A stretch of DNA of 37,779 bases, taken from positions 1 to 37,779 of the IMG/VR virus record IMGVR_UViG_3300025652_000203; one strand, 5' to 3'. Shown piece by piece: positions 2,699-20,125 of the stretch (position 1 is its first letter; each line of letters starts with the position of its first letter). The notes below the pieces were generated by a model. That model was given only the letters and a program-made list of their open reading frames with translations, searched no databases and had not been told where the DNA came from. The stretch is from a virus. A program made the position numbers and the translations under genes.

Positions 2699-2908
2699 CT
2701 TAAGATTTTTCACTCCTTTGATCATCTTTTTAGCTGTATTAGATACACCTGAATTATTTTTACTACTAAATTGCCCTACATTAATCCCTTTTCTATTCAA
2801 CGCTAATTGAGTTTTAGGATCGTAAAAAGTGTGATCATAGAGAGGGTTTATTTCTAATGGTGATTTATCTTTTTTTGATAATAATCCTTTTAATGGTGAA
2901 TTTCTCAT
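2681..2908 (-). CDS. 75-aa basic peptide with two SPL motifs
   Basis: Short basic protein of no recognised family. It contains S-P-L twice, near residues 4-6 and 16-18, followed by N-P-L-Y-D-H-T-F-Y-D-P, and a Lys-rich tail ending K-S-K-N-I-K. The motif recurs in neighbouring small genes, which argues that it is a real gene and not chance. Its ATG overlaps the TAA of the putative lysis gene in a TAATG junction, implying coupled translation. A virion-associated peptide or lysis accessory is possible. Confidence 0.65.
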   Translation of the reverse strand: MRNSPLKGLLSKKDKSPLEINPLYDHTFYDPKTQLALNRKGINVGQFSSKNNSGVSNTAKKMIKGVKNLKSKNIK

Positions 2909-2925
2909 TATTTTATATTTTTACT
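2908..2925 (-). repeat. 18-bp leader repeat, copy 2
   Basis: Minus-strand AGTAAAAATATAAAATAA, identical to the copy at 2681-2698. It encodes S-K-N-I-K-stop of the lysis gene and leads straight into the ATG of the 75-aa gene. Shorter relatives lie before the 85-aa gene (about 3963-3978) and the 233-aa gene (about 29805-29820). Confidence 0.75.
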
Positions 2926-3525
2926 TTCTATTAATGTATATGAAAATGAATTACCCCAGTGCTCTCTAGCTTCTTGGCATATGCCCAAAAACTCCATCCA
3001 GTCGTCATTAGAAGCTATTACTTGACAACCAGCGCTCCACTTGTTTACGTAAGTAGAAGTCTTACCTTCTAACGCCGTTGCCCTATGTATGTTAATTCCG
3101 AATACACCTGTGTCTACAGATGATTCGTCAAATTCATATTTATCGTTTCTATTATTGTCTCTATAAACTGTTACATCTTTCTTTTGTCCTAAGGCTAGGT
3201 ATTTCCCAGAATGTAATCTAAGTTTATGAGAACCTCTATATTGCCCAGGTTTTAATACCGCACATCCTTTTTTCTCTATCCAAGGATTTTCCATCCAATC
3301 ATCTCCCGGATCGGTAGTACAAGCGTACTCTAAGTATTGCCACTCACTGTTTTCGTCTTTGTAAGAAATAGTAATTAAGTCGTCAAACTTATTAGTAATC
3401 TTACCTTCAGTTTTAGAGTTACGAATACCAATTATATTTACGTCGTAATTGTCTCCTGTAAAATACTTATATCCTAATCCTTCTACAGTATCTTTTATTT
3501 GTTCTCTAGTATACTTATAAGTCAT
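2908..3525 (-). CDS. Putative lysis enzyme, L,D-transpeptidase-like fold
   Basis: 205 residues without a signal peptide. The C-terminal half has G-I-N-I-H147-R-A and then W-S-A-G-C167-Q-V. This His plus [ST]-x-G-C arrangement matches the catalytic pattern of YkuD-type L,D-transpeptidase and related Cys peptidoglycan enzymes, so a murein-cutting role in lysis is likely. Before it lies a 12-residue acidic loop D-N-N-R-N-D-K-Y-E-F-D-E (residues 123-134) resembling a calcium loop. The N-terminal domain (about 1-100) may bind substrate. The family occurs in phages and prophages of Bacteroidota, usually unnamed. Neighbours include a single-TM protein and exported envelope proteins, consistent with a lysis cassette. 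No other lysozyme is visible in the window. Start overlaps the 58-aa gene's stop (TAATG). Confidence 0.65.
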   Translation of the reverse strand: MTYKYTREQIKDTVEGLGYKYFTGDNYDVNIIGIRNSKTEGKITNKFDDLITISYKDENSEWQYLEYACTTDPGDDWMENPWIEKKGCAVLKPGQYRGSHKLRLHSGKYLALGQKKDVTVYRDNNRNDKYEFDESSVDTGVFGINIHRATALEGKTSTYVNKWSAGCQVIASNDDWMEFLGICQEAREHWGNSFSYTLIESKNIK

Positions 3526-3701
3526 TATATCTCAAATCCTAGATTAAGTATCATTAACCTAAATCTTTTAGACGAGCATCCTGCCTCGCAGAATAAACAA
3601 GCTTTAATTTCTAAAACTGTAAATGTACCTAGTCTAAAGTTAAATTCATATTTTTGCTTTTTGTTTCCGGCAGCGTAACCGTTTATCCAGTTTATTTTCA
3701 T
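3525..3701 (-). CDS. 58-aa Cys-containing small protein
   Basis: Open frame from ATG at 3701 to TAA at 3525, read directly from the sequence. It begins MKINWINGYAAGNKK, continues F-N-F-R-L-G-T-F-T-V-L-E-I, has C-L-F-C-E-A-G-C, and ends F-R-L-M-I-L-N-L-G-F-E-I. The C-x2-C-x3-C cluster could bind a metal. The flanking strands suggest a tiny beta-rich protein. Its TAA overlaps the ATG of the lysis gene, so it is likely translated with it. The otherwise gene-free 179-base gap in a tightly packed operon supports it. Function unknown; similar F-R-L-x-I-L-N-x-x-F-[ED]-I endings occur in small phage proteins, from memory. Confidence 0.7.
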   Translation of the reverse strand: MKINWINGYAAGNKKQKYEFNFRLGTFTVLEIKACLFCEAGCSSKRFRLMILNLGFEI

Positions 3702-3704
3702 AAT

Positions 3705-3962
3705 TTATTTTTTATTTATTTTTTTAGCTGCTTTTACAGCTTTGTTATAAGCTTTTGAACCTTTTTTAGACATACCTTTTTTACCCACTCTTTTTCTTTT
3801 AGCTCTTATATTATGCCACAATCCTTTCTTTTTTTCTAAAGGAGACTTCATCTCGTCGATGTGTTCTTCAATCACTTTAGCTTGTTCGCCGTGTGCTTTA
3901 ACTGCACCTTTTAATTGTTTAACAACCTCTTCGAGGTTTTTGTATTTCATCTTAAACGCCAT
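3705..3962 (-). CDS. Small basic phage protein, KKGLWHNIRAKRKR motif
   Basis: 85 residues. The first half is a helical, mixed-charge segment (residues 5-40). It is followed by M-K-S-P-L-E-K-K-K-G-L-W-H-N-I-R-A-K-R-K-R and a Lys-rich tail ending K-K-I-N-K-K. The [KR]-G-L-W-x-N-I-x-x-[KR]-R-x-R block is widespread in small proteins of marine phages, but I know no function for it. The strong positive charge suggests binding to DNA or acidic virion proteins. It carries one of the SPL motifs shared with neighbours. Start chosen at 3962, preceded by an A/T leader related to the 18-bp motif. Confidence 0.7.
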   Translation of the reverse strand: MAFKMKYKNLEEVVKQLKGAVKAHGEQAKVIEEHIDEMKSPLEKKKGLWHNIRAKRKRVGKKGMSKKGSKAYNKAVKAAKKINKK

Positions 3963-3979
3963 AATTTTATATTTTTATT

Positions 3980-4459
3980 TTAACATTTCCACCTACGTCT
4001 AGCTGCTCTACCTCTTTCACCAGTCCAACCTTTAGATCTAGCGCAAAATGATTTTCTACGTTTAGCAGCCTTACTACCTCGTTTAACTTTTCCTGTTACC
4101 GCTGTTTTTAATTTACTACCTGGGTTTTTAGCCTTGTATTTTCTAACACCAGCAGCCGTCATACCAGCACCTTCTTTTGTAGTTCTAAAATTACGGTTTT
4201 TTCCTTTGGTAGTTTTTCTTACGTCAGGTTTTCTTTTTCTTTTCTTTTTTCTTTTATCGAACGGCGATCCGTTTTCCATCATTTTAGGACCATTGTCAGG
4301 AACACAGCTACCTGACTCTTTAGCTGGACGCCCATCTGGATTAGGTTTGAAACCATCCCAACACCTTTTAAAAGGAGCTGGATTATCTGTGGTTTGAAAC
4401 GATCTTCTTCTACCACAGCTTGTTATTGGAAAAGGATTATTTTTTTGTACGTACGCCAT
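3980..4459 (-). CDS. DUF5872-like basic protein
   Basis: 159 residues, strongly basic. The C-terminal half from about residue 95 shows G-A-G-M-T-A-A-G-V-R-K-Y, then N-P-G-S-K-L-K-T-A-V-T-G, then G-S-K-A-A-K-R-R-K-S-F-C-A-R-S-x-G and a final A-A-R-R-R-W-K-C. This matches the pattern I associate with DUF5872, seen in marine phages and large DNA viruses of algae; its function is unknown. The N-terminal half has several Cys, a segment M-E-N-G-S-P-F related to the SPL motif, and a K/R run near residue 70. Nucleic-acid or virion binding is plausible. Its ATG overlaps the stop of the beta-barrel gene (TAATG). Confidence 0.75.
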   Translation of the reverse strand: MAYVQKNNPFPITSCGRRRSFQTTDNPAPFKRCWDGFKPNPDGRPAKESGSCVPDNGPKMMENGSPFDKRKKKRKRKPDVRKTTKGKNRNFRTTKEGAGMTAAGVRKYKAKNPGSKLKTAVTGKVKRGSKAAKRRKSFCARSKGWTGERGRAARRRWKC

Positions 4460-5517
4460 TATTTTATTATATAATTAACACCAGTTTTTAACTCGTAATT
4501 ATCTATGTCCCAATAGCGTCTCCATTTTCCCTCTATAAATATTCCTATTCTTTTAGTTATCTTTGTTCCTATAACTCCTCCTAAGTCAAAATCGATGTTA
4601 TCTTCAGCATAGGAATAATCTGTTAACCCTTTATGCTTAGGCATTACATCTCCCCAGAAATGAATCCAAAACCTAGGTCTATAATAATAATACGATGTAC
4701 CTATTACTAATGACACTTCTTGTTGCATTCCTAAACTATTTAATTGTTGTTTATTGTATTGATCAACAGCTTTACCAAATTCGTACTTCATAAACTCTTG
4801 ATCGGTGATAGCGACTAAAGTTCCATCTGGAGCATACCAATTCCAATTGTAATAATCGTACCAGTCGTCAACACCATTACCTTCGCCGTCCACGTAGTAG
4901 TATTCGTCTTCATATCCTATGTCATAAGCTATATTCCACCAAGGATCGTTTTCTAAATCGTAATTTTCCAAAAACGGATTAAACCCGTAAACCGGATGTG
5001 ATCTATGTTTTATACCTGCTGTGAAATTAAAGTCACCCACGTCTACCTTACCTCTAACTTCACCGCCAAATGTCTTTAATTTTATTTCTTGGTTATCCAC
5101 ATACTCACCTTTAACTAAAAAATATTTACCTACGTGTCTGTACCAGTATTCTTGGTTAGTAAATTCTCTACCCCTATCACGAACAAAACTACAGGATAAT
5201 AAATACTCGCCGCCAGTAACAGCGCCAATACTAGCATTAGTACTGATAGTATTTTCAGAACCATCATAAAACCTTTTAGCTTTATTTTCATATCCAAATC
5301 TTGCTATTTTTCTAACTCCTAAATTAATTTCGTAATTATAAGGACTAACTACTGTTAAATCAGTAAGCTGTCCGGTTACTCTATCCATCATGTAACGAGG
5401 TTGTTCTACTAACGGGGAACTTATATCTCCGGATACAAAAAAAGTAGCGTTCTTAAGTATCTGCGCGTTTGAAGCAAATGCTATACACCACACGAGTAAC
5501 AATAATATATTTTTCAT
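4459..5517 (-). CDS. Exported beta-barrel-like outer-membrane protein
   Basis: 352 residues. A clear signal peptide spans residues 1-18 or 19 (MKNILLLLVWCIAFASNAQ), of the Bacteroidota type ending N-A-Q. The mature part has no further membrane helix and consists of alternating aromatic/polar strands with Tyr- and Trp-rich turns, consistent with an outer-membrane beta barrel. An acidic loop D-G-E-G-N-G-V-D-D starts near residue 210. The last strand ends N-Y-I-I-K rather than the classic terminal Phe. It is coupled to the upstream thioredoxin-like gene and the downstream DUF5872-like gene by one-base TAATG overlaps. A role in superinfection exclusion, surface change or lysis is inferred only. 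A secreted non-barrel beta protein is the alternative. Confidence 0.65.
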   Translation of the reverse strand: MKNILLLLVWCIAFASNAQILKNATFFVSGDISSPLVEQPRYMMDRVTGQLTDLTVVSPYNYEINLGVRKIARFGYENKAKRFYDGSENTISTNASIGAVTGGEYLLSCSFVRDRGREFTNQEYWYRHVGKYFLVKGEYVDNQEIKLKTFGGEVRGKVDVGDFNFTAGIKHRSHPVYGFNPFLENYDLENDPWWNIAYDIGYEDEYYYVDGEGNGVDDWYDYYNWNWYAPDGTLVAITDQEFMKYEFGKAVDQYNKQQLNSLGMQQEVSLVIGTSYYYYRPRFWIHFWGDVMPKHKGLTDYSYAEDNIDFDLGGVIGTKITKRIGIFIEGKWRRYWDIDNYELKTGVNYIIK

Positions 5518-5858
5518 TAGTATACGTCTTCTATTAGTTCGTTAATATGTTTTTGTAATTCTTCTTTTGTAGCTACCATCTTAAAACTTAAGTCAGCTTC
5601 AAACCTATACATTTCTACTCCATCTTTAAATACAATAATTGTAGGCAAAACAGTTACCTTGTTTCTTTTGATTTTAACAGGACATTTTGTGTGAGTAATT
5701 TCGCAATCCGTTAATGAGTCTACCCACTCAGCTTTGTTAGTTTCGTTCCACTCAGCATTAAAATGCGTAGCAACAACTTGGCTAAAAGAAGTGTTCGCTA
5801 ATAATATAAATAGTAATACTAATAAGTATATGCCGAATGTTTTAGAGGTTGGTTTCAT
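5517..5858 (-). CDS. Exported thioredoxin-like protein lacking CxxC
   Basis: 113 residues with a signal peptide at 1-26 (hydrophobic core I-Y-L-L-V-L-L-F-I-L-L, ending F-S-Q). The mature part follows a thioredoxin fold: strand V-V-A-T-H-F-N-A-E-W37, then N-E-T-N where the WCxxC active site should be, then T-V-L-P72-T-I-I-V-F-K-D-G with the family's cis-Pro. Both catalytic cysteines are therefore Asn (38 and 41). The only other Cys are C52 and C59, which could pair. It should sit in the periplasm and not catalyse ordinary dithiol exchange; binding or chaperone roles are possible. ATGA overlap with the single-TM gene and TAATG overlap with the barrel gene indicate one translational unit. Confidence 0.75.
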   Translation of the reverse strand: MKPTSKTFGIYLLVLLFILLANTSFSQVVATHFNAEWNETNKAEWVDSLTDCEITHTKCPVKIKRNKVTVLPTIIVFKDGVEMYRFEADLSFKMVATKEELQKHINELIEDVY

Positions 5859-6178
5859 CTGTTATAGAGTTTATCTTCAATTTTTTCTAGAGTCTTTTTC
5901 ATTTCCTCTACATCTTCTTGAGTTGTTAGTATTGTCTGTCTAATCATTTGATCTTTCATGTCAAATTCCATTCTAGTTATCTCAGCCTCTGGTATTGCTT
6001 CTAAAATTTCTTCTTTAAGAATGTTAACATCAATTTGCACTGGTTGCTCTTTAGCTTCCTGTATTTCTTGCATAAGAGAGTACCATCCGCCAACAACTAC
6101 AAATATACCTGCAGCTACCATACCCATAGTTTTAATACTCATTTTGAACGTTGTGTCTTCGTTTAATTCTTTAGCCAT
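5855..6178 (-). CDS. Single-TM coiled-coil protein, holin or spanin candidate
   Basis: 107 residues. A short charged N-terminus is followed by one hydrophobic segment at about 15-36 (S-I-K-T-M-G-M-V-A-A-G-I-F-V-V-V-G-G-W-Y). The rest is an acidic, heptad-like helix ending E-E-M-K-K-T-L-E-K-I-E-D-K. An N-in inner-membrane anchor with a periplasmic coiled coil resembles an inner-membrane spanin, or a one-helix membrane protein common near lysis genes of marine phages. Neither holin nor spanin can be assigned by sequence alone. It begins the envelope/lysis cassette, after the giant ejection gene, with a 47-base A/T-rich gap upstream. Confidence 0.65.
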   Translation of the reverse strand: MAKELNEDTTFKMSIKTMGMVAAGIFVVVGGWYSLMQEIQEAKEQPVQIDVNILKEEILEAIPEAEITRMEFDMKDQMIRQTILTTQEDVEEMKKTLEKIEDKLYNR

Positions 6179-6225: not shown

Positions 6226-9200
6226 TTAATCATGGTAGTAACACAAACCGCTTTTTGCTTTTGTCTTCATCTTACACCTCTTCTTATCAGACTTGATCTT
6301 TTTACACTGAACTTCTTTTGTTCCTTGATCTACCTTAACATGAATAGTACAATATGTATTATTACCATCTACTTTAGTTTTACATCTTTTTCCAGATTTA
6401 TTTACAGCAACGCAAGTAATATCTTTTTTACCCTCTTCTCTTTCTTTCTTTTGATCTTCAATAAAACTTTTTTCTATTACTTCTTCCTCTGCTTCTTTTT
6501 CTTTTTTCTTTTCTTCCTTTTTTATTTTCTTTTTCTTTTTCTTTTCAACTTCCTTTTTTTCTTTTATTTCATCTTCTACGGCTACCACATCAGAATCATC
6601 TATTTTTAAATCCCAAGTATTCCAACCCATTAACAAGGCAAATCTTTGTAAAGCAGTTATATCTTCTGTTAAAGCTGCATCTATGTTATCTACTTTTTTA
6701 ACAAGTCTATCTAGTGGTAAGTTTGTAGTAGCAGATACAATGTTAGCTATAATAGACCACGTAGGGTTATCAATGTCTAACAGGTCCATTTCTTTCATTA
6801 CTTCTTTGTTAAACTTTCTTGTTTGTATAGCTGAATAAAGTTTTCTACCTTTAGAACTTATAGTTGGAGATAAACCAAAAAACTTTAATATTGTATAAGT
6901 GTGATCTGCGTTCCAACCCTTACCTTCTTGTTTATTGTATTCTAATATAGTGTTTTTTAGTGTCAACGCAACGTTTCCACCAAATCCAAGACCACCAAGA
7001 ATAGAATCAATCATAGAGTTCGCAGTTCTTTCAAAAGCCTTTTCTTTTTCTTCATCTTCATCTCCACCTATCAAAGCACCTAACGCTGTTTGAAGAGCTG
7101 AAAATATTAAATTTTGAACACCCATGTAGTATATGATTTTACCTACATTTGTTTTTGCGTCACCTCTACCGTTTGCTAAATCTAAAAATGCTTTTTTAGT
7201 TAATCTAGCATATTGCATTGGAGTGTTTTTAAATGCCAGTATATACCTTCCTAATGGACTTGCTTGTTGCTGTGATATCATATCAGGTCTAGAAGACTGC
7301 TGAGACTCTTCTGTGTTTTCTGCAAAATCTTGAAAGGCTTTAGTTTCTGCTTGTTCTTGAGTCATACCTTGTTTTAAGTAAGTGTTTACTCTGTTTCTGT
7401 AAAACGTAGCACCACCAGAAGATATTGCAAAGCTATCCGCGATTTGCGTAGGTAAAAATCCTTTTGTCAATAAGTAATGTAACATAGCCTTAACTCTATT
7501 AGCAACGCCAACACCTTCAACTGCTTGCGCTAACTCTGCTTCGTTAATACCTCTTTGATTACCAGCACGCCTCTGTTTTAACATGTCAGAATTGAATATC
7601 ATTGTGAAGTCTTTTAAAAACTGTGGAAAATTTAATAATGCTCCACCAGCTTTTAAAGGGTTGTTGTCTGACCAATTTAAGTAGTTAATACTAGATATAG
7701 TTTGTAGTAATGCTGATCTCATGTTAAAAAACATGATCGCGCCAACAGATTGGTTTGCCCAGTTGTTAAAAGCATTTACTAGTCTGTTGCTACCAGCTTC
7801 TCTTTTTCTTCCAAACTCCATTCTGTAAAGAATATCTTCCAAAGCTTCTCTAAACCTAGTACCGTATATTGCTTCTATTTTATTTATATTATCTCCAACT
7901 AACCTACCGTCACTTCCCCAAACACCAAACATTATTTCTTTGTTTTGCCTCCATTCGGCTAGATGATCCTCTCTGTTTATTTCGTTGTTTATTGTATTTA
8001 TATCGCTATCTATATTTTCTACCGTCCAGTATTCTGTAGGTTCTAAATAACCTAACTCTTGATTTGTTATTAGTGCTAAGTTTTCAGCAAACGATTTCAA
8101 TTCCGTGTCACTCTGTACGAAGTTAACTAAAGCTTTTAAATCTCTTTGTGATAACCCAGGTACTTCCATACCGTTTTTATTCCAAAGATAAACTCTGATA
8201 GCCTGCTCAACAGTAAACTGATTACCTTCAAATCCTGTGTAGTCATCTAGTTTATCACTTAACTCTTTTTTTACATTAGGAAATTGTTTTAACAATTCTT
8301 TATATTGATTATTTAATTGCTGCTTAGACATGTTCATAGCTTCGTGTGCTCTTCCAAACGGATCAAACAAAGCTTTTTTGAAAAATGCCATCTGAGCCTC
8401 ACCTTGTCTACCCTTACCAATAAATCTATACACTAACCCTTTAAAATCTTCTGCTGAGTAAGGAACCCAAAACTTCCATTTACCCTTAGCAGAACCACGT
8501 ATTTTAGCTTGAGCATCAGAAAATACAGCTTCAGCTTTAACACCTTTAGTTTGCTCTAGTATTCTATTAAGGTCTAATTCCGCTTGGAAGTTACCATCTA
8601 ATACTTTATTGAATGTAGGGTTCATACTTCTACTAAACTGTATTTTGGCTTGAACAGAAGAACCTTTAATATCTAACTGTTCTAACATATCAGCAACAGC
8701 TTTTACATTAGGTAAAGCGTCGTCAACAAAGTACATATCGTTATACCCCTCTGCAAACTTTTCAGCCATCCACATAGCTTTAGCTTCACCAGTACTATTA
8801 CCTAACCCAGTAATATTTTCAATAGGCATATCTATACCTTGTTGTTTTAACCAAGCTTGTATTGCGGGCGCTGCTTCGGCTGGTCTAGCCGTTAGTATGT
8901 AATTGTTTTCAATACCATACTTAGCTATTCTGTTTCTAAACTTTTGCATTAAAGGACCTTCAACCCCACCTTTTACATTTACAAAATCACTGAAGTCAAA
9001 ATCGTAACCATCAGCTGCTAGTTGAGGTCCTTGTAATGGCCAGTTGCTAGAACTGATTTCTACAACGTCTTCTCCTTTAGTGGCGATAATAGTATTATCA
9101 CCTTTGTCAATAAGTGTTTCGTCAAAATCAAAAGCACTCATACCTCTTGACGGTGTTAAGTGATTTGTTTTGTTAGCGTTGTTTACAGCTTTACTAAAAG

Positions 9201-12200
9201 TATTCCTTTGTTCTACCTCTTGAATATTTTCAAAATTATGATAAGATTTATTTACAAAATCTTCTCCGACTCTTAATCCTTTTAACTCTGGGTCTAAAGC
9301 TGTTATAGCTCTAACTTCTTTATTATATTTGTTTAATTTATGAAACAACCTGCCTAAAGCGTTTTGTTCTAGTTTTGTTAAATCTGTTAAATTAGATCCT
9401 TCAACATATTCTAACTGCATGTGAGACTGCATTTTATTCATCTTAACAACACCGTCCATTTTCTTTTGAATAATGTTAACAACATAATCACTAAAGAAAA
9501 CGTCTAATTCTGCTCTTATTTCTGATTCTGTTAAGTTACGTTTTAACATATCAGCTAACTTTAACATTAAAACATTATTAGGTTTTAAATGGTCATATTC
9601 TAATTTTGTTCCTCTATCTTTAACAGGAACGTCTTTAGCACCATCTGATATTCCCCAAGGATAAGCAGCTTTTCTAGTTGGACTAGTCATACCGCTACTT
9701 AATGTCATTATGTAAGCAGCTGCGTCTCTATCATCTGTTAAACTATTTGGGTCGTTATAAGAATTATTAAATGCAATGAATTGATCCGTTAACATCGACC
9801 TATAACTTAACGCCTGGTTCTTATGTTTGTTAAAGTTTTTATAACTTAAAGCTGTGTTTAAATTTTTTATTACTTCATTGGAGTTTTCCGAAATTTCAAC
9901 CTTATTAAAATTAGGGTACATCTCTTTTAATTTTTTATCGTTAGTCACGTTAGGTTGTCTAGTTATATGAGAGTTAGTTCTCATTCTAGGTTTACCTTTT
10001 TCCATAGCTGGTTTAACAGGTATTATTTCTATACCTGGCAAGGCTTTGTTTATAAGCGCAGCCCAATCTCCAATACCTTCTGTTATCTGCATACCCATTC
10101 TACCTTTGTTAGGTATGTGTTTTTTATTTCTAATAACAGGACCACCCTCATATTCTACAGTCCAAAAACCATCTACAATCTTACCAGACGCAGCGAACTG
10201 TCCTTTTGTTTTCCATATATAACTTAGTGCTTTTGCTTTTTGTTCTGGTGTTGATTTTTTCCAAACATCCTGCAATAACACATCTCCTCTACCGTCAACA
10301 TCCATACCAGCGTGTCGCATTGCTACCACAACAGAATCGGTAATAGATTGTCTTGCTCTAGTTATAACATCTTCTTGGTTAGCTATAGATTTATATGTTC
10401 CGTCTATACCTAAGGCATTAAATACACTTCTTTCCTCTATAGCTTCTTGCTCCCAATATTGTCTAGCTTGATCAACTATAGAAGGAAAAACTTCTTTACT
10501 TCCCTTGTATGAGTTTCTTAAATTTATCTGAGAAATAACTACGCCTGTTTCTGTGGTCATTTCTTTTATAATATCACCATGAAGACTTTTATCAACACCA
10601 GCATCTACCAAGGCTGTTTTTATATAATTTCTAAGTAGCTTCACGTTTTCGCTAGGTATTTCCTTTATTTTTAAATTTGAAGAACCTACACTCATGGACA
10701 TAAATTCTCCCCAAGGTATCGTTCTATCTAATATAGAAACAGCTTGTAAATAATTTGTCGTTTGTTGTGGCGAGTTAACCAAAGCTTTGCTAAACACAGG
10801 CATCGACTTACCGTCTTGTAAAGAGTTTCTTACAGCGTCAGTTGTATTTTCATTTTGTCTAACCGTTTGGTTAGATATAATTTTACCATGTTGAGTTATT
10901 AAAGCTTTTACTCTTTGACTGACATTACTTTCCTTACCAACTATATTAACTTCTCGTCTAGGCGTTATACCAAAAACCTCTAAAAAGTCGTTAGTAGGCA
11001 TACTAGGTTTTTTATACTGAGGAAAGAAGTTTCCGTATGGTTTAGCGGCTTTATTATAAAAAGGTTCTAACAAAACGTTTTGTACACCCGTAGCTTTATC
11101 AGGTCTGTCTATAAAAGAACCATCTCTTTGTTTTACTCTTCTCGTGGTAAATCCTTGAGGTAAACCTATCCACAATAATTGATTGTGCTTGCTTATATAT
11201 TGTTGTAGGGCTTTTATATCTTGTTGGTTTAAATTAGCATTATTAGCTAACTTTTCAACTATAGAATCTAATATAGAAGTTCCTATAAGTTTTTTCATTG
11301 CTGGCCTTTGCCACACTGGAGTTCCGTCGTCTTTGTAAACAGCTGTTGGATCAGACATCATCATAGATATTGTTCCTCTAGGATCTAAGTCAGGAAGTGA
11401 TTTATAATTTTTACCTTCTGCAATTTCTGGATTATTATTTATAATATCATTTAAATTAACAAGATGTTGTTTTATTCTTGGTTCTCTATCTGTTCCTTTT
11501 TCTGCTTCGATCAATCTTTCACTAACAACTATACCACCTGACTGTATTCCTTTTGCTTCGTCCAATTGTTCGATTGAATCTTCCATTTGAGAAACCTCAT
11601 TCATTGCGTCATCCATAGATCTTGCAAAGCCTTTGTCTTTAGTGTACTTAGATAAAACTTCAAAAGCCCTAACTTTAAAATAAGTGTTTATATACGCAGC
11701 GGTATTTTTATATTTTTGTTTTTCGGTTTTAAAATCTCTAACTAATCCAACTACTGTTCTAGCTTTTCTAGTCTCAGTACCTAAATCAAAAAGCATGTCA
11801 GATATAATATCCTCTTTAAAATCTTCTAATATTTTTTGACTATCTGTTCCTACAGATTGTCTATAAGCCTCTTTCCATCTAGCTTCAGCCATCCCTCTAT
11901 ATTTAGCCGCAATCATAAACTCTTTCTGACCATCAGTAAGCCTATCATCATTATATATATCGTTAACTTCCGCGGCTAATTCAGCGGCTGTTTTTGGAGT
12001 CATTAAATTTTCAACTTCTTGCTGAACGTTTTGTTGGGCTTTAGAAAAACTAACTATAGCTGGATCCACCTCTGGATCAGTGATTTCAGAAAAATAAACT
12101 CTACTACCAATAGACATGTTTATTATATCTTCACTAAACTTCCCGTCTATAGCTTGTGAATTATAAGTTCTAAGAAATTCTAAAAGTTTTTCAGGAGTGT

Positions 12201-15200
12201 CTAAATTAGTATCTATAAGTTTGTGAAAATCTTCTTCAACTTCACCTTTTAAGAAATTAATTATTCTATCTTTAATTTTTTGAAGTATACCTCTGTTGTC
12301 TGGTCTGTTGTCCATTTTAACAACTCTATCTATAGACCCATCTTCATTATAAAGTGTTACACCATCCCCTGCTACGATGTCATGAAAGTTGTTTAAATAT
12401 TCTTCAGCGTAAACTTCAAAAGGCAATTCGTCACCGGTTTTTTCATCGTTTTTGTACCCACGCGCTTCCATCACGGCGTCTAAATCTTTTCTTTGACTTG
12501 GTGGTAGTAAATCTAATAATCCTTGTATAAGATCCTTTCCTTTTGGGGTCAATTTAGTGTTGTATTTCTTTCCGTCTTTACCTACAACTTGTCTTATTGG
12601 ACCATTGATTACAGAAAATAATACTTGATGTAATAATTCGTGAGATGCACCCGTGTTGTTTCCAGTTTCTAAAGATTTATCTTTATTTATAATAAGTATA
12701 GGCTCCATCTGTCCAGTTTTGGAATTGAGCCCTACGCCCATGAATGCTATTGCATTTAACGAACCAGGTACAGACTTATGAAAACCAGCGGCTATCATTT
12801 GTTCTCTAGTCATAGCTTCAGTACGAACGCCAGATCCGTCTTTATTATTTGTTACGTTTTTAACAGCGTTTACAGCTTTATCAAATTCAGCTTCGTTAAA
12901 AGTTTTAAAGTCAAAACCCCCGTCCATTTCTATCATCGCTTGAGAGACAGCTTCTGGACTAGTTACTATAACTCCCTGTTGGTCAAATTCAAAACCTTTT
13001 TCTTGAAGTTTTAGATAATTAATAGTATTTCGAAGATCGTTTATTATGTTAGCGTCTTTTTTACCAGGTGTTTTTAAAATTTCATTTAGTTCTAACTCGT
13101 AATCAGCTAATGTTTTTCCTCTATTCTCTGGGTTAGCTTGAAACTCTTGAGATTCAATCGCATCTGTTTGACTCATTAAAACTTCTGATCCAGTAAAGTT
13201 ATCTATACCCGTTATTGAGTTTATAACGCCTTGTATTCTTTGAGCTTTATCAACTCCTACTTTGTTGTTTATCTTTATATTACCTCTACTTTGTTTGTCA
13301 AAAAATCCATTTTCTTTAGCTCTTCTAATATCAGCGATAAACTCAGATAAACTATCATAACTTTTTCCTTCAAACTCATAAGGAGAAGCTTCTAATCTAA
13401 TCTCGTTACGTTCCTTAATTTTCTTAAGAATTTCCTTTCTTATCTTTTGGTGTTTTTCTGATCCAAGTTCATGGTCTTTAAGTTGTTGTCTTTTGTTCCA
13501 AATTTCAAAATCAAGTTGCGTTTCTTTTTTGCTTTTAAAATTTAAATTAACTTGCTTAGCTAATTTTTGTATATATTTTTCTGTATTATTTAACTCTCTT
13601 CTTAGTCTTTCTTCTTCCGCTGGGTTTTTAGTATCTTTTATTTGTTTCCTTAACTGTTCTTTTTTTACTAATGCATTTAAAGTTTCTTGTCGTTGATTAT
13701 GAGACATACTGTTGTATTCATCAAAATCAATTTGAGACTTAGCTAATACATAGTTTTGAACTTTTTGAATTATTTCATTAGCTTGACCAGGTTTTATTTG
13801 TCCAAGTTTTTCTTTGTTACGCATTACTTCTTGAAACACATCCATGTTTTCTATAGCAGCTTGGTACATACCTTGATCTATCTGTCCTTTTCTAAAACCT
13901 ACAGTTCTTGCGGCTCCACCAAAAAATACAGTGGCTGGGGTTAGTACGTTTAATGCTTTAAAATCTTCTGCCGTTGGAATATGAAAGTCTGTATCGAATT
14001 TATTATTGTATTGCATACTCACCATTCCACTAGCTAACTCTTGTAGGTTTTCTTCAATCATTTCCTTAGGAATCTCCTTAAGCATGTTACCAAATAGCTT
14101 GCTAAACGTAGCCATATTAGGTATAATACCATCTTTTGGTAACCATAGTTTTGGATTTAAGAAATCACCTTTTAACTTTTTAATTTGAGACTTACTCATG
14201 TTTTGCCACACCTTCGGATCTAGATAATCTTTTGCCCCACTTCTTATTCTACCAAAATTCTTAAACATATTAACATCAGGAAACAGAGCTTCAATACCAG
14301 ACTCAAACATTGTTTTAGTTACAGCGGAGTTAAAAGCATCTTCATAACTAAAATTTTCATCTACCTGAGACATAGCTTCTTCAACGTTCATAGGGTAATA
14401 CGCCATAGCGCCACCGACAACCTGTTGTGCTCTATCTTTTAGTTTTAATGTTTTTCCTACTGTTCCTAGACTTGGTATTATTTTAGTTCTTTGTATCATC
14501 TTCATACCGCTATAAAGCCTAGGAAGAGTTAAAGCCACTTGGTTTTTAATTATTTGTCCAGGTAAACTAGAGGAAAATTTTCTAGCTCTACTACCAACCT
14601 TACTAAAACCACCTCTTACAACACCACCACCTCTAACCATCATATGCATAAGCGTTAGTGTCTGTGCTGATTGCTCTATGAACGAAGTAATATTCATCTC
14701 TCCAGTTTTAGGATCAAACAGAGGTCCCATTTGTACCATGTCTGGTTTAAGCATGTTAGACATAGTTGAAAACAACTCATACGCTTGGGCCTTCTTTTTT
14801 TTAGAAAGTTTCTTTTTCCCTACAACCCCTCTAGCAAAATCAGCTCCTTCTATACTTAAGAAACCAACACCACCAAGAGCATAGTCTATTACGGTACCAA
14901 AAACTTCCTCTAACGGAGCTATTATTGGGGCGTACCAATGTTCAGAAGCTTTTTCTATTTTTGTTTGGTTGTCAACCATATCTTTATAAGCCTTGTTGTT
15001 TTTATAAAGATTGTTATATTTCAGCTTCATTACATTTGCTTCATTAGCAAAGTTTTCATAACCCTCAAACATTAATTTCATTCTTGGGTCAATGATTATA
15101 CCATTATATCTGTTACTTTTTCTTTGCGCATTTTCTGAAATGACATTAATTTCTGTTACCATCTCGTTGATCTTAGCAATGTTTTCTTCCGAACTTTCTA

Positions 15201-17811
15201 TCTCACCAGAATCAATTTGCTCCTTGAACTTTAAATATTTAGAATACTTAGAGTTTTCATCACTTTCATTTAATTCTTGTAAGTCTTTCTCTAAAGAAAA
15301 ATTCAAATCATCAAGCTCATCAACTTTTTCATAAAAACCATTAACCTCGTATTCATCTTGTAGATTATTTACTTTTTGAGATTTTTGATTATAATAAGCG
15401 TTTAATAAATTTGCTTTATTAACATCTGTTTTGTTGCTACCCCACATACCAGACCAAACGTTTCCAGTGGATATAGGATTATCAATAACCCACTTACCTT
15501 TATTTACATCAAAAATAGTTTTTTCAAACGAACCGCTTTGACTATAATTTTCTTCTAAGAACTTGTTAAAATCATCCATATCTTCTATGTCACTTAACTC
15601 CGCGTCGCTATAGTCAAGCTTAGAAGACATTGATTGTGATAGTGATTTTTGATTTCTTCCAAACACAGCGGCCCCTTCAGATTCAAACATATTCTTCCAA
15701 TCACTATTCTGATCCATCTTGTATTGTAAGTATTTTAATTTTTTATCGTTTAAATCCAATGTATAGCCGGCTTCATCTAAATACGAGATTCTATTATCGT
15801 ACTCTTTTTTAGTCTTCTCGTATATTGTATAGCTAGTAAGATATTTCGAGAGGAGTTTTTGATACACTTCTCCCTCTTCATCAAGTTGGTCTATTAGAAA
15901 TCTAGCTCTTCTTCTATCATCATCGCTATCTCCTAGTTCAGACACCTCTCCACTAATCCCCCGCTCTTTGATTTCCTTTTTTGATTTTTGTTCTTCTGTG
16001 CGTATTCTATCTAACTCAACCTCTCTATCATAACCACCTCCCTCACTATATTTATTATTGTAAGATTTCCAATCTTTCCAAAACTCTACATCATCGCTAC
16101 TTATGTTATAAGTTTGCCCATTCAATCTATAAGTACCTTCTTTGAAGTCTTCTACTCCAAATTTATTATTAATACCTATCTCAACCACTTCACTGACAGA
16201 GTTATCGCCGTTGTAATTCAAATCCCAATATTCCTCTATTTTCTCTATGTCTGTAGAAGATTTATTTCTGTTTCTATTTAAAACTAAACTATTGTACTCT
16301 TCTTCACTTATAACGCCATTAGATATATTTAGTTTTTTATCTTCAGCTTTCTTAACCTCTGCTCCTGATAAATAATACTCACCAGGTTTTACTACGCCGT
16401 TTACAGTAGCAAAAGGTTCGTCAGTGGTGTTTTGTATGTATGCATCTGGGTTTACTACGTTTGTAGTTATATTACTTGGTAGTTTCTTTTTATATTCGTT
16501 TTTCCAATTTTCATATAAATCTCTTTTAAAAGACTGTAACTCGTTTCCTTTATAGTCATAGGTTGGGTCTAATATATCTCCTGCTTTAGAAACGCCAAAC
16601 GAAAGAGACTCTGCAACTGTTCCCCAAAAACCTGGTTTATCTCTACCATCATAATAGTACTCATCGGTTGCTAACCATTCTTCGTAACTAACGTTTTGTC
16701 TTTTTTCGTTTTCTTCTTCGTATCCTTTTATCTCCTTACCCTTGTTAACGTCTATTAAGTTATAAGTATAATCTTTTGCGCTTTGACCGTCCTTTCTTTT
16801 TGAAGCAGCAGTTTTAGCCTTAGGGTATAACATGTCTAAGTTAGTGTTAACTTCTTCGTTACTTATGGATTCGTACTCTTCAGTTTCTTCATTTTTCTTT
16901 CTCCACTCTCCATCAATAACTCTAAAGTCATCATACTTTAATTCGTTCAAAGCATTAGGATGCGCTAAGTTTAAAGTCTCTAAAGTTTTCTCTCCACTTA
17001 TAACATCTCCAACTTCACCGTCTTTTACGTAACGCCACTCATATTCTTTTGTGTCTTCATTAAGAACAGGTCTATAATCAGTAACTCCTACTTCTACGTG
17101 AGTTTCATCTCCACCGTACTTTTGGTTCTTCATCCACTTGATCAATCCTTTACCAGATTCTATTTCTTCCGTTCCACCTATCCCAACAAAATTAGTTTCA
17201 AACTCATATGTCTCTCCTGTCTTTTTGTGAGTAGCCGTTATCATATCACTTCCAGAATCCTCAAACTCAAAATCCTCACCATATTCTCTAGTTAGAGTAT
17301 TAGCAACAAAATCATCATCTCTATAATCAAGTATGTTATCTGATAGCTTTTTGTCCCCACCTTCAGAGTCAGTCCAAGTAGCGCTTGGAGAAATTATTTT
17401 ATCATAGTCTGTAATATCAGTTTCAACGTAGTTGTCTTTTTTTGTGTTCAACCTATCAATAAAGTCGGGGTTTATATCTTTTACAGGTACTTTCCCCTCT
17501 TTTCCTCTTTGAGACATGTCAAACATCCACTCGCCGTTTTCGTAAGTGTACTCATATTCCTCACCTGTTCCATCATCTTTTTGGTGACTAAATTTTGGAA
17601 GAGTAAAAACCTTTTTAACCGTAGATTGTTCTTCTCTAAAGTCTTGTTTTGATTTTTCTTCTTGACGCTTTCTTTCTTCTTCTATTTTTCGTCTTTGTGC
17701 TGCAACTTTAATGTTGTGTCTATGCTGCCTTACCGCGCCAATTATTTGGCTAGACGTATAACCTTGATTTCTTAAACTATTAACAATTTCTACTTCTTTA
17801 GCGTTTGCCAT
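6226..17811 (-). CDS. Giant polyvalent ejection/virion protein
   Basis: 3861 residues, about 31% of the window. It starts MANAKEVEIVNSLRNQGYT and has long charged helical regions to about 950. A D-L-N-Y-N-G-D-N-S-V-S-E loop lies at 530-541. A Gly/hydrophobic region around 1000-1250 could meet membranes. H-E-L-L-H at 1724-1728, with E-V-Y-A-E-E-Y near 1799, fits a gluzincin metallopeptidase. E-Y-D-H lies at 2738-2741. A HAD-type domain shows F-D-F-D-E-T-L (from 2894), I-L-T-A-R-P (2972) and Y-F-V-D-D (3027). From about 3360 to 3610 it resembles LPD38 of large polyvalent phage proteins. A Lys/Glu linker (about 3747-3777) leads to two C/H modules (about 3799-3861). Such proteins are packaged and injected with DNA; that role is inferred. 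One base separates it from the 406-aa gene. Confidence 0.8.
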   Translation of the reverse strand: MANAKEVEIVNSLRNQGYTSSQIIGAVRQHRHNIKVAAQRRKIEEERKRQEEKSKQDFREEQSTVKKVFTLPKFSHQKDDGTGEEYEYTYENGEWMFDMSQRGKEGKVPVKDINPDFIDRLNTKKDNYVETDITDYDKIISPSATWTDSEGGDKKLSDNILDYRDDDFVANTLTREYGEDFEFEDSGSDMITATHKKTGETYEFETNFVGIGGTEEIESGKGLIKWMKNQKYGGDETHVEVGVTDYRPVLNEDTKEYEWRYVKDGEVGDVISGEKTLETLNLAHPNALNELKYDDFRVIDGEWRKKNEETEEYESISNEEVNTNLDMLYPKAKTAASKRKDGQSAKDYTYNLIDVNKGKEIKGYEEENEKRQNVSYEEWLATDEYYYDGRDKPGFWGTVAESLSFGVSKAGDILDPTYDYKGNELQSFKRDLYENWKNEYKKKLPSNITTNVVNPDAYIQNTTDEPFATVNGVVKPGEYYLSGAEVKKAEDKKLNISNGVISEEEYNSLVLNRNRNKSSTDIEKIEEYWDLNYNGDNSVSEVVEIGINNKFGVEDFKEGTYRLNGQTYNISSDDVEFWKDWKSYNNKYSEGGGYDREVELDRIRTEEQKSKKEIKERGISGEVSELGDSDDDRRRARFLIDQLDEEGEVYQKLLSKYLTSYTIYEKTKKEYDNRISYLDEAGYTLDLNDKKLKYLQYKMDQNSDWKNMFESEGAAVFGRNQKSLSQSMSSKLDYSDAELSDIEDMDDFNKFLEENYSQSGSFEKTIFDVNKGKWVIDNPISTGNVWSGMWGSNKTDVNKANLLNAYYNQKSQKVNNLQDEYEVNGFYEKVDELDDLNFSLEKDLQELNESDENSKYSKYLKFKEQIDSGEIESSEENIAKINEMVTEINVISENAQRKSNRYNGIIIDPRMKLMFEGYENFANEANVMKLKYNNLYKNNKAYKDMVDNQTKIEKASEHWYAPIIAPLEEVFGTVIDYALGGVGFLSIEGADFARGVVGKKKLSKKKKAQAYELFSTMSNMLKPDMVQMGPLFDPKTGEMNITSFIEQSAQTLTLMHMMVRGGGVVRGGFSKVGSRARKFSSSLPGQIIKNQVALTLPRLYSGMKMIQRTKIIPSLGTVGKTLKLKDRAQQVVGGAMAYYPMNVEEAMSQVDENFSYEDAFNSAVTKTMFESGIEALFPDVNMFKNFGRIRSGAKDYLDPKVWQNMSKSQIKKLKGDFLNPKLWLPKDGIIPNMATFSKLFGNMLKEIPKEMIEENLQELASGMVSMQYNNKFDTDFHIPTAEDFKALNVLTPATVFFGGAARTVGFRKGQIDQGMYQAAIENMDVFQEVMRNKEKLGQIKPGQANEIIQKVQNYVLAKSQIDFDEYNSMSHNQRQETLNALVKKEQLRKQIKDTKNPAEEERLRRELNNTEKYIQKLAKQVNLNFKSKKETQLDFEIWNKRQQLKDHELGSEKHQKIRKEILKKIKERNEIRLEASPYEFEGKSYDSLSEFIADIRRAKENGFFDKQSRGNIKINNKVGVDKAQRIQGVINSITGIDNFTGSEVLMSQTDAIESQEFQANPENRGKTLADYELELNEILKTPGKKDANIINDLRNTINYLKLQEKGFEFDQQGVIVTSPEAVSQAMIEMDGGFDFKTFNEAEFDKAVNAVKNVTNNKDGSGVRTEAMTREQMIAAGFHKSVPGSLNAIAFMGVGLNSKTGQMEPILIINKDKSLETGNNTGASHELLHQVLFSVINGPIRQVVGKDGKKYNTKLTPKGKDLIQGLLDLLPPSQRKDLDAVMEARGYKNDEKTGDELPFEVYAEEYLNNFHDIVAGDGVTLYNEDGSIDRVVKMDNRPDNRGILQKIKDRIINFLKGEVEEDFHKLIDTNLDTPEKLLEFLRTYNSQAIDGKFSEDIINMSIGSRVYFSEITDPEVDPAIVSFSKAQQNVQQEVENLMTPKTAAELAAEVNDIYNDDRLTDGQKEFMIAAKYRGMAEARWKEAYRQSVGTDSQKILEDFKEDIISDMLFDLGTETRKARTVVGLVRDFKTEKQKYKNTAAYINTYFKVRAFEVLSKYTKDKGFARSMDDAMNEVSQMEDSIEQLDEAKGIQSGGIVVSERLIEAEKGTDREPRIKQHLVNLNDIINNNPEIAEGKNYKSLPDLDPRGTISMMMSDPTAVYKDDGTPVWQRPAMKKLIGTSILDSIVEKLANNANLNQQDIKALQQYISKHNQLLWIGLPQGFTTRRVKQRDGSFIDRPDKATGVQNVLLEPFYNKAAKPYGNFFPQYKKPSMPTNDFLEVFGITPRREVNIVGKESNVSQRVKALITQHGKIISNQTVRQNENTTDAVRNSLQDGKSMPVFSKALVNSPQQTTNYLQAVSILDRTIPWGEFMSMSVGSSNLKIKEIPSENVKLLRNYIKTALVDAGVDKSLHGDIIKEMTTETGVVISQINLRNSYKGSKEVFPSIVDQARQYWEQEAIEERSVFNALGIDGTYKSIANQEDVITRARQSITDSVVVAMRHAGMDVDGRGDVLLQDVWKKSTPEQKAKALSYIWKTKGQFAASGKIVDGFWTVEYEGGPVIRNKKHIPNKGRMGMQITEGIGDWAALINKALPGIEIIPVKPAMEKGKPRMRTNSHITRQPNVTNDKKLKEMYPNFNKVEISENSNEVIKNLNTALSYKNFNKHKNQALSYRSMLTDQFIAFNNSYNDPNSLTDDRDAAAYIMTLSSGMTSPTRKAAYPWGISDGAKDVPVKDRGTKLEYDHLKPNNVLMLKLADMLKRNLTESEIRAELDVFFSDYVVNIIQKKMDGVVKMNKMQSHMQLEYVEGSNLTDLTKLEQNALGRLFHKLNKYNKEVRAITALDPELKGLRVGEDFVNKSYHNFENIQEVEQRNTFSKAVNNANKTNHLTPSRGMSAFDFDETLIDKGDNTIIATKGEDVVEISSSNWPLQGPQLAADGYDFDFSDFVNVKGGVEGPLMQKFRNRIAKYGIENNYILTARPAEAAPAIQAWLKQQGIDMPIENITGLGNSTGEAKAMWMAEKFAEGYNDMYFVDDALPNVKAVADMLEQLDIKGSSVQAKIQFSRSMNPTFNKVLDGNFQAELDLNRILEQTKGVKAEAVFSDAQAKIRGSAKGKWKFWVPYSAEDFKGLVYRFIGKGRQGEAQMAFFKKALFDPFGRAHEAMNMSKQQLNNQYKELLKQFPNVKKELSDKLDDYTGFEGNQFTVEQAIRVYLWNKNGMEVPGLSQRDLKALVNFVQSDTELKSFAENLALITNQELGYLEPTEYWTVENIDSDINTINNEINREDHLAEWRQNKEIMFGVWGSDGRLVGDNINKIEAIYGTRFREALEDILYRMEFGRKREAGSNRLVNAFNNWANQSVGAIMFFNMRSALLQTISSINYLNWSDNNPLKAGGALLNFPQFLKDFTMIFNSDMLKQRRAGNQRGINEAELAQAVEGVGVANRVKAMLHYLLTKGFLPTQIADSFAISSGGATFYRNRVNTYLKQGMTQEQAETKAFQDFAENTEESQQSSRPDMISQQQASPLGRYILAFKNTPMQYARLTKKAFLDLANGRGDAKTNVGKIIYYMGVQNLIFSALQTALGALIGGDEDEEKEKAFERTANSMIDSILGGLGFGGNVALTLKNTILEYNKQEGKGWNADHTYTILKFFGLSPTISSKGRKLYSAIQTRKFNKEVMKEMDLLDIDNPTWSIIANIVSATTNLPLDRLVKKVDNIDAALTEDITALQRFALLMGWNTWDLKIDDSDVVAVEDEIKEKKEVEKKKKKKIKKEEKKKEKEAEEEVIEKSFIEDQKKEREEGKKDITCVAVNKSGKRCKTKVDGNNTYCTIHVKVDQGTKEVQCKKIKSDKKRCKMKTKAKSGLCYYHD

Positions 17812-17812
17812 A

Positions 17813-19033
17813 TTATGCTTTATCTAATATTTCTTGAGTTGTCATATCACTACCTTTTTTTACGAACATCCCTAGATCTTCATTCCATACAGTACCTTCC
17901 TTAGCTAATTCTCCCATTATACCTCCTCTAGCAATAAACACCTTTGGATTCTCACCTGGTTCTGGACGTAAGGCTTTTCTTTGTGTAGAGTTTAGTCCTG
18001 ACGGATGTGATCCGTAGAATTTTTCTTGAGACTGTCTAGTTAAATAATCAGCTACAATATTTTTAGACATTTTAAAGTCATAGTTAACGTCTGTTTTATC
18101 TGTTATAGCTTTAACAAGAGCTGCTTTATCTTGTTCACTATTTCCTGGGATACCATCACCATCTACGTCAATATTAAACGTTTTATAATAATCTGGCATT
18201 TGTTCTAAATAACTACTCAAGTCGGCTGCAAAAGTATTACTTTCTCCAGATTTTCTAAAGTCATCGTGCATTATAGACATTATGTTATCCTCTTTAATGA
18301 AGTTATCACCAATACTAGTTTTTATTCTATTAAAATTAAAATCCGCACCAGTACCATTAACGTAGTTCATGCCAGCTTCATTTTGTCCCATTTCGTATTC
18401 TAAATAAGCTTTAGATACTACTTCGTCTACCTGGCCTAACGATTTATCTAAATCTTCTGTAGTATACATCTGCCCAGTGTCAGGATCTTTAAAGAACCAT
18501 TCTCCGTCTTGATAAACAGCGTTAGCTGGGTTTGTACATATATTTGCTATTTTTATTTCTTCTGCTGTTCTACCATTAGATAAAACTCCATCATTTTTTA
18601 ATTCAGCCGCAATACTTAAACTTTCTTTTAAAGATCCAACTCCAGTAGACAAACCTTGTAACCTCATTTTTATTTTTGTTTGTGCTTCCTTGTCACCAGC
18701 TCTCACAGCGTCCATATACTCTTGTTGTAATAGTTTAGCTTGTTCTGTAGCTATACCATAATATTCCTCTCCAAGACTTCCAGAATTTTCTGTTATCTTA
18801 AGAACATTGTTAGAAAATTGTTCTTCGTGAGATTCTAGTTCTTTACGTTTGTTTTCTTCATCAACTCGTATTGCTTCCTGACGATCTTGAACAGCACCTA
18901 AAACTTGTCCACTTAAATCGCTAGCCGTATCCCAATTAGTACGTATGTTACGTTGTGCTGTTTTAGCATCTAAGTAAGACTGTATAGCGTTGCTGCTTAA
19001 TTCGTATCCTGTAGTTGTGTTTTTTTTTGCCAT
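17813..19033 (-). CDS. Internal virion (ejection) protein with calcium-loop motif
   Basis: 406 residues, mostly helical, with no signal peptide or membrane segment. Residues 45-150 are rich in Glu, Gln and Lys and look like coiled coil. A canonical 12-residue acidic loop D-V-D-G-D-G-I-P-G-N-S-E occupies 289-300, as in EF-hand or dockerin-type calcium sites. The C-terminal part holds short Gly/Pro turns. Position between the 205-aa Ala/Gln-rich protein and the giant ejection protein matches the T7 gp14-gp15-gp16 arrangement, so I infer an internal core protein. There is no sequence-level match to gp15 that I can point to. Confidence 0.65.
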   Translation of the reverse strand: MAKKNTTTGYELSSNAIQSYLDAKTAQRNIRTNWDTASDLSGQVLGAVQDRQEAIRVDEENKRKELESHEEQFSNNVLKITENSGSLGEEYYGIATEQAKLLQQEYMDAVRAGDKEAQTKIKMRLQGLSTGVGSLKESLSIAAELKNDGVLSNGRTAEEIKIANICTNPANAVYQDGEWFFKDPDTGQMYTTEDLDKSLGQVDEVVSKAYLEYEMGQNEAGMNYVNGTGADFNFNRIKTSIGDNFIKEDNIMSIMHDDFRKSGESNTFAADLSSYLEQMPDYYKTFNIDVDGDGIPGNSEQDKAALVKAITDKTDVNYDFKMSKNIVADYLTRQSQEKFYGSHPSGLNSTQRKALRPEPGENPKVFIARGGIMGELAKEGTVWNEDLGMFVKKGSDMTTQEILDKA

Positions 19034-19039
19034 AATTTA

Positions 19040-19657
19040 TTAGTTTGCTATTCCCGCGGCGTAAGTACCAACAGAGCTACCCACTTGATTAATACCTGCG
19101 TCTATATCACTTTGAGCTGCATTTATAGCATCAGCTGTACCAGCTACATTTCCAGACGCTAATTGAAGTTCTGCGTTTGCTATGCTACCTTTTAATCTTC
19201 TTGAATATTTTTCGCCTTCTATTTCCAAACCTTGTATTCTACTAGCTTCTGTTCTCTCAGCTTTTTGATTGCTTTTTTCTTGTTGAGCTATATTAGCTGA
19301 AGCTTTTTGATTTGCTATTTGACTCTGATTAGCCATAGCTTGTGCTAATGCCGCTATACCAGATCCTCCAGCTGCTTGATTCATTTTCCCTAAAGTATCA
19401 GCCATACCAATTTGAGATTGTTCGTTAGCCATATCTGCCGCTTGGGTATTAACAGTTAAATCCTCCATAGTGTTTTCCATGTTTAAATAAGGATTACTAG
19501 TATCCATGTTACGATACTTATCCATAGCTTTTTCCATTTCCACTTTAGCTGCTTTGTTTTCAATTTTAGCTTTTCTTTTGTCGGCACTACCTTTTATAGC
19601 GTTAGCTACACCTAGTCCAGCTGAAACAGCTAGTGCTCCTACGGCAATAAAACTCAT
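19040..19657 (-). CDS. Internal virion protein, T7 gp14-like by type
   Basis: 205 residues. The N-terminus (S-F-I-A-V-G-A-L-A-V-S-A-G-L-G-V-A-N-A-I) is a short hydrophobic helix without a signal cleavage site. It is followed by a Lys-rich helix and then long Ala/Gln/Asn/Met-rich stretches, including G-S-G-I-A-A-L-A-Q-A-M-A-N-Q. This hydrophobic N-terminus plus Ala/Gln-rich body is typical of podovirus ejection proteins such as T7 gp14 that form the first membrane pore. It precedes the 406-aa and giant genes in transcription order, as gp14 precedes gp15 and gp16. Assignment is by composition and gene order. Confidence 0.7.
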   Translation of the reverse strand: MSFIAVGALAVSAGLGVANAIKGSADKRKAKIENKAAKVEMEKAMDKYRNMDTSNPYLNMENTMEDLTVNTQAADMANEQSQIGMADTLGKMNQAAGGSGIAALAQAMANQSQIANQKASANIAQQEKSNQKAERTEASRIQGLEIEGEKYSRRLKGSIANAELQLASGNVAGTADAINAAQSDIDAGINQVGSSVGTYAAGIAN

Positions 19658-19660
19658 AAT

Positions 19661-20125
19661 CTATTTATTTTTATTAATATATTCTTCATAATCTTCAAAT
19701 GTTAAAGAGACAATCTCGTCTTCTAGTTCTTTAATATCTTTTATATTGTTGGGATTTTTATGTATGTTTACAAATATAGAATCCTCCATTGCGTATATAA
19801 CTCTTTTACTACCTGGCGTTGCTAAAACATAACATGGTGCTATAAACTCTTCTGTAGTATCCTCTGTTACGACCATCAAATGCCCAGTTAATAAAAACCA
19901 AGCGTGTAAGTGGTTATGGATAGCTCCTATAACCATAGAATCAGATTTCATATCCATTTGTCTTATGTATATACCATCTGCAAAGGTGTGTTTTAAAGGA
20001 AAGTTATTGCTATGTACTATCTTGTTACCATCTCCCTCTATATTTTCTCCATCAGCATTACTTATTAACAATTCTTGTAAAGCTTGTATTTCCTCTCTTT
20101 TACTAAGAGTTATTTCTTTTTTCAT
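19661..20125 (-). CDS. Cupin-fold protein
   Basis: 154 residues. The core from about 45 to 125 follows the cupin pattern. Motif 1 is I-H-N-H-L-H-A-W-F-L-L-T-G, giving three His as metal-ligand candidates. Motif 2 is P-C-Y-V-L-A-T-P-G-S-K-R-V-I-Y-A. The end is acidic and helical. Small single-domain cupins are found inside structural operons of many marine phages; the substrate is unknown and a structural role is possible. It lies 44 bases after the 125-aa gene and 3 bases before the ejection gene. The ATG at 20125 gives the full fold. Confidence 0.7.
   Translation of the reverse strand: MKKEITLSKREEIQALQELLISNADGENIEGDGNKIVHSNNFPLKHTFADGIYIRQMDMKSDSMVIGAIHNHLHAWFLLTGHLMVVTEDTTEEFIAPCYVLATPGSKRVIYAMEDSIFVNIHKNPNNIKDIKELEDEIVSLTFEDYEEYINKNK

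Follow-up and report, generated by a model that had tools for sequence, protein, structure and literature searches.

The closest described systems are the phage polyvalent proteins, very large chains encoded near late structural genes in which a zincin-type peptidase, recognizable by an HExxH motif and a glutamate in a later helix, is combined with unrelated enzymatic modules (Iyer et al. 2017, PMC5512222). In crAss001, a podovirus of Bacteroidota hosts, large cargo proteins (gp45-gp50) are stored in the capsid and tail, and ejection with partial unfolding has been proposed from the virion structure and mass spectrometry (PMC10172136). The record of Cellulophaga phage phi18:3 annotates gp120, gp121, and gp123 with "experimental MS/MS proteomics." Here, we analyzed a giant gene on a linear 37.8-kb fragment of a marine bacterial virus, the whole of which we refer to as the window. 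Sequence comparisons and structure predictions suggest that its product is probably an injected polyvalent cargo protein with an active peptidase and an active phosphatase. The original prediction, an ejection protein of polyvalent type that combines a peptidase with a HAD module, agrees with the predicted HAD topology, the invariant zincin site, the polyvalent-like C terminus, and the homology to proteins annotated from virion MS/MS, but its naming of an LPD38-like region and the share that it gave the gene did not hold up.

The open reading frame (positions 6226-17811, minus strand) is uninterrupted and encodes 3861 amino acids (aa). It is real, as full-length homologues exist: the aligned set (n = 41; 40 complete giants from relatives plus the window protein) spans 2256 to 4311 aa. 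The gene had been said to take about 31% of the window, which overstates its weight in a genome, since the window covers only a fragment; MW202828, a relative with a complete genome of 60,850 bp, devotes 19% to the positional counterpart (3859 aa). On the minus strand, the gene order runs from the terminase large subunit (TerL) through the portal, a scaffold-type protein, the major capsid protein (MCP), two ring-type proteins, a muzzle, fibre-type genes, and the 205-aa and 406-aa genes to the giant, with the portal, scaffold, and fibre labels resting on position and on homology to annotated relatives. The order TerL-portal-MCP-ring-muzzle-205 aa-406 aa-giant is common to the window and its named relatives. 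The giant is thus encoded beside late virion genes, as polyvalent proteins are, and, as originally predicted, lies downstream of two ejection-type proteins (Table 1). The muzzle matches the crassvirus family, as would that of a Crassvirales-like virion, but in the C-terminal domain only. The phage that carries this domain has its named relatives in the Pervago-/Pachyviridae and is not filed under Crassvirales.

Table 1. Modules of the giant protein and features of neighbouring genes, with residue numbers in the protein and positions in the window
Feature	Residues	Positions	Strand	Basis
Lineage-specific N-terminus, exchangeable slot	1-723	15643..17811	-	Comparison with relatives
Delivery-domain region	about 1150-1390	13642..14364	-	Relation to phi18:3 gp123 N-terminal domain
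Zincin-type metallopeptidase module	1659-1879	12175..12837	-	Invariant active site, 41/41
HELLH active-site motif	1724-1728	12628..12642	-	Motif and conservation
Conserved middle region	2034-2353	10753..11712	-	Conservation among giants
Divergent middle region	2480-2832	9316..10374	-	[ED]HxxP motif in 22/41 giants
HAD phosphatase module	2887-3062	8626..9153	-	Invariant motifs; best fold match T4 Pnkp 3'-phosphatase
Helical region, scaffold part one	3084-3324	7840..8562	-	Conservation/profile
Scaffold part two	3324-3742	6586..7842	-	Relation to Gundel_1 gp074 C-terminus; fold of phage polyvalent proteins
C/H module 1	3800-3824	6340..6414	-	DUF5763 E 0.011, below cut-off
C/H module 2	3836-3860	6232..6306	-	Also in some relatives
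406-aa protein, middle gene of trio		17813..19033	-	Position only
First trio gene, 205-aa protein (hydrophobic segment at the N-terminus)		19040..19657	-	Homology to phi18:3 gp120
Muzzle protein, 1852 aa		22626..28184	-	Crassvirus muzzle C-terminal domain PF25729, 2.4e-9, above cut-off

Relatives were collected by scanning with a profile of the C-terminal region, which gave 64 loci and from these the complete giants of the aligned set. All 41 giants share one order: a variable N-terminus, the zincin-type motif, a middle region, the HAD module, and a C-terminal scaffold of ~660 aa. The part from HAD to scaffold is 44 to 73% identical to the window protein, and the middle part is 13 to 35% identical. 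With the giant as tblastn query, 50,697 phage records yielded almost no matches, and the named relatives (MW202828, Maribacter phage Panino, Flavobacterium Elemovirus, and Cellulophaga phages phi38:1 and phi18:3) were reached through the MCP. Matches to Stx phages were left out of the comparison, and other phages were used. Whole-protein scans of the giant against Pfam, NCBIfam, and PHROGs produced subthreshold matches only, and a sequence search of the PDB returned none. Giants with peptidase, HAD, and scaffold also occurred on two contigs binned as a Sphingobacteriales metagenome-assembled genome (MAG) (L076) and a Maricaulis MAG (L077), which are likely misbinned phage contigs or prophages. 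Outside phages, the module was found in none of 295 genomes of the phylum except the MAG with the known contig.

The first gene of the trio ties the locus to proteins annotated from virion proteomics. A profile of the 205-aa protein joins 37 of 38 relatives with phi18:3 gp120, phi38:1 gp99, Elemo gp20, Panino, and Gundel_1 (E of 1e-22 to 1e-29; phi18:3 gp120, 5e-25), and the best reversed control gives 0.27. The place of the 406-aa gene is occupied in nearly all relatives by a gene of 282 to 1149 aa; homology of the 406-aa protein to phi18:3 gp121 was not detected. An iterated profile (E of >5 for the reversed control) places the N-terminal domain of gp123, which we refer to as the delivery domain, ahead of the peptidase in 28 of the 41 giants and also recovers it from Elemo, Panino, Gundel_1, and phi38:1. 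The window protein reaches this domain through profile-profile comparison only, with the profile of its clade (window, L001, and L074) giving hhalign E values of 1e-6 to 5e-6, versus about 0.1 for the reversed sequence. The locus resembles phi18:3 gp120-gp121-gp123 and phi38:1 gp99-gp101 in gene order, in the homologous first gene, and in the delivery domain, whereas the giants of these two phages are shorter (1691 to 1935 aa) and have the delivery domain without the HExxH peptidase, HAD module, or C-terminal scaffold.

Ahead of the peptidase, the giants vary widely, with stretches of 353 to 2107 aa among the relatives. One relative (L037) begins with a domain of the GH108 muramidase type (5e-7), and another (L065) has an LPD14-like stretch upstream (1e-5, just below the cut-off); LPD14 was seen in three relatives, at best with 25.6 bits against a cut-off of 27. 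Elemovirus gp18 and Tenacibaculum phage Gundel_1 gp074 are likewise giant "structural proteins" with the delivery domain and an HExxH, but they carry a DUF3293 (Elemo) or a sub-cut-off GNAT-like domain (Gundel_1) and no HAD of the window type. This pattern reads as a delivery core with exchangeable cargo, in which the peptidase-HAD-scaffold set is fixed in the lineage of the window.

The peptidase motif of the original prediction was confirmed. HExxH occurs once in the window protein, compared with 0.03 occurrences expected from composition, and exactly once in each of the 41 giants, always 845 to 1170 residues ahead of the HAD motif. The putative zincin-type active site (H1724, E1725, H1728, and E1804) is unchanged in all 41. 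As in zincins, the model predicts HExxH within one helix (82-96) and the putative third-ligand glutamate within a following one (159-175). A profile of the module also matches the Elemovirus giant (2e-10) and MW202828 (6e-5). Pfam gave no match of the module to the MPTase-PolyVal family (PF18818), for which hhalign reached an E of 0.011 at best with the HExxH motifs in register. A fold search of the PDB with a 1196-residue model of the peptidase and middle regions found no solved structure; this model is multidomain with a pTM of 0.49, and the missing match is therefore no proof of a new fold. A candidate module swap between the window and L001 at residues 2345-2880 was dropped, as one profile spans both proteins, though L001 is part of that profile.

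The C-terminal region was expected to be LPD38-like. The Pfam LPD38 model (PF18857) matched nothing in the window record or 16 relatives at an E of 10, while it does match L078 (2e-34), which rules out LPD38 as a name at the Pfam level. A weak colinear match to true LPD38 proteins (L078-L080) covers only the segment before LPD38 (E of 0.003 to 0.007, versus 0.3 reversed). The resemblance in predicted fold to polyvalent C-termini is clear: in a Foldseek search of predicted viral structures, an 881-residue model matched four close uncultured relatives first and then the C-termini of many phage giants, including proteins that carry the names PolyVal ADP-ribosyltransferase, MuF C-terminal, and large polyvalent protein-associated, and the Gundel_1 structural protein (E of 1e-12 to 1e-5). 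The scaffold is also related to Gundel_1 by sequence profile (4e-10). What stands of the LPD38 claim is the weak colinear similarity and this resemblance in fold to annotated polyvalent proteins, and because LPD38 itself was undetected, we call the region a polyvalent C-terminal scaffold. No named Pfam polyvalent domain (LPD/PolyVal) is significant in the window protein, a difference from described polyvalent proteins despite the similarity in fold. The predicted C/H modules were confirmed, with two near the C-terminus. Across genomes, most additional PF18857 matches were repetitive proteins of ~200 aa, which corrupted our first LPD38 profile. In genomes of the phylum of L076 (L081-L102), PF18857 scored above the cut-off on many of these (NLIGNVGILIDSTIESVQG...); they seem unrelated to LPD38 and are probably false positives of the model.

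The HAD-like hydrolase of the original prediction is well supported as a HAD phosphohydrolase. All four HAD motifs are present in the window protein (DFDET, 2895-2899; TAR, 2974-2976; K3011; and DD, 3030-3031), and D2895, D2897, T2899, T2974, R2976, K3011, D3030, and D3031 are unchanged in 41 of 41 giants. In the 881-residue model (mean pLDDT of 76.6), residues 2-178 form the HAD domain, and the proposed fold search bore this part out. With VIA-align 2, Pnkp 3'-phosphatases lead (4xru, 5uj0, 1ltq, and 2ia5; Z of 10.1 to 11.1, with 119 to 129 residues aligned at 2.7 to 3.0 Å), and general HAD phosphatases rank just under them. The module is thus likely Pnkp-like, nearly tied with effector phosphatases. 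It shares its catalytic motifs with the 3'-phosphatase domain of T4 polynucleotide kinase/phosphatase, its best fold match, but it is only about 10% identical, lacks a kinase domain, and is fused into a virion-type protein. The predicted zincin-type site and HAD module, both with catalytic residues invariant in all 41 giants, place two unrelated domains in one chain, as in the polyvalent class. The founding polyvalent paper names no HAD phosphatase in its main text (PMC5512222), nor did we find one described as an invariant polyvalent core in the open literature; a HAD phosphatase with an active site unchanged in 41 giants extends the class, whose injection strategy is already known.

Because HAD effector phosphatases are nearly as close as T4 Pnkp, a substrate can be assigned only tentatively. 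It is possible that the giant is injected and that its HAD module, instead of acting on nucleic-acid ends, removes phosphate from tyrosine or serine in proteins or acts on small signalling nucleotides in the host: Foldseek placed the Legionella effector phosphatase Ceg4 first, with Lem4 also high, and Pfam DUF2608 matches 25 of the 41 giants (best, 7e-5). Against this, the structural aligner scores Lem4 at a Z of 8.6, below the T4 and bacterial Pnkp domains, and the PHROG matched most often is polynucleotide kinase (phrog_415; 11 of 41 giants), to members of which, taken from genomes, the module aligns by profile-profile comparison at an E of 3e-5 (0.5 reversed). In jumbo phages, PNK-HAD phosphatases serve RNA repair after RNA cleavage (PMC7824862), and on this precedent we tentatively suggest nucleic-acid ends as the substrate, with RNA-end healing as the leading guess, though RNA repair would require a kinase or ligase, and neither was recognized alongside the HAD module.

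A further question is whether the enzymes act in the host at all. The giant could mainly be a structural component of an ejection channel, like T7 gp16 or P22 gp16, in which the work falls to the scaffold and delivery regions while HAD and peptidase serve only assembly or maturation, such as a cleavage within the head, and neither attack nor defence in the host. In arrangement, the three genes (about 200 aa, 400 to 600 aa, and a giant) resemble T7 gp14-15-16. An ejection role can do without the enzymes, since phi18:3 gp123 and phi38:1 gp101 lack HExxH and the HAD motif, and the GH108 domain of L037 fits wall penetration. We nevertheless consider a mainly structural role somewhat unlikely, as the HAD module is among the best-conserved parts with every catalytic residue invariant, which would be unusual if it were passive, and injected polyvalent proteins are described as typically fusing a zincin with effectors (PMC5512222). 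That both enzymes are decayed relics and the giant serves as mere filler within a structural gene could be argued from the related phages without HAD and peptidase, but this is very improbable, given that every catalytic residue is retained in 41 proteins that have diverged so far from the window's in their middle parts.

We favor the reading of an injected polyvalent protein encoded by the last gene of a three-gene ejection operon, in a podovirus akin to flavobacterial Pervago-/Pachyviridae and Elemovirus phages. The giant would be stored in the particle, thread through portal and tail either before the DNA or together with it, and fold again once inside the host. Such packaging would recall crAss001, which has a related muzzle domain, whereas crAss001 carries RNA polymerase-associated giants (PMC10172136). 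The region before the peptidase would be the delivery part, with an exchangeable N-terminal slot, and the helical scaffold would be a carrier common to phage polyvalent proteins. The zincin would probably cleave the giant itself to free its parts, or else act on a host protein. The HAD phosphohydrolase may, as its leading candidate activity, strip terminal phosphates off cleaved RNA or DNA in the first minutes after entry, countering early host nuclease defence. The most specific version, in which a whole marine flavobacterial podovirus lineage injects a polyvalent protein and the best-conserved portion of this protein is a nucleic-acid 3'-end-healing phosphatase, released by the zincin and countering RNA- or DNA-cleaving defence before phage expression, is speculative and, taken as a whole, unlikely. 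The giant ties a widespread, poorly understood phage group to the polyvalent-protein strategy, and its invariant HAD module offers one defined, testable enzyme for what is injected first. As related phages occur with and without this module (phi18:3 and phi38:1 lack it), its function is testable in culturable relatives.

Several neighbouring genes deserve mention. A 154-aa cupin-like gene (19661-20125, minus strand) is inserted between the 125-aa and 205-aa genes, a place where L001, a close relative, lacks it. The giant is immediately followed by two small genes (5517-6178, minus strand), both kept in L001; one has a signal or transmembrane segment and is weakly similar to thioredoxin (PF00085, 0.031), and the other has a transmembrane segment. 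Three genes past the giant (4459-5517, minus strand), a 352-aa protein with the signal peptide MKNILLLLVWCIAFASNAQ is beta-rich and resembles an outer membrane barrel, which is unusual within a phage structural block; Pfam and NCBIfam searches assigned it to no family. Finally, a 205-aa protein (2908-3525, minus strand) has an H...SAGCQV pattern that recalls L,D-transpeptidase-like peptidoglycan enzymes and is a candidate lysis gene.
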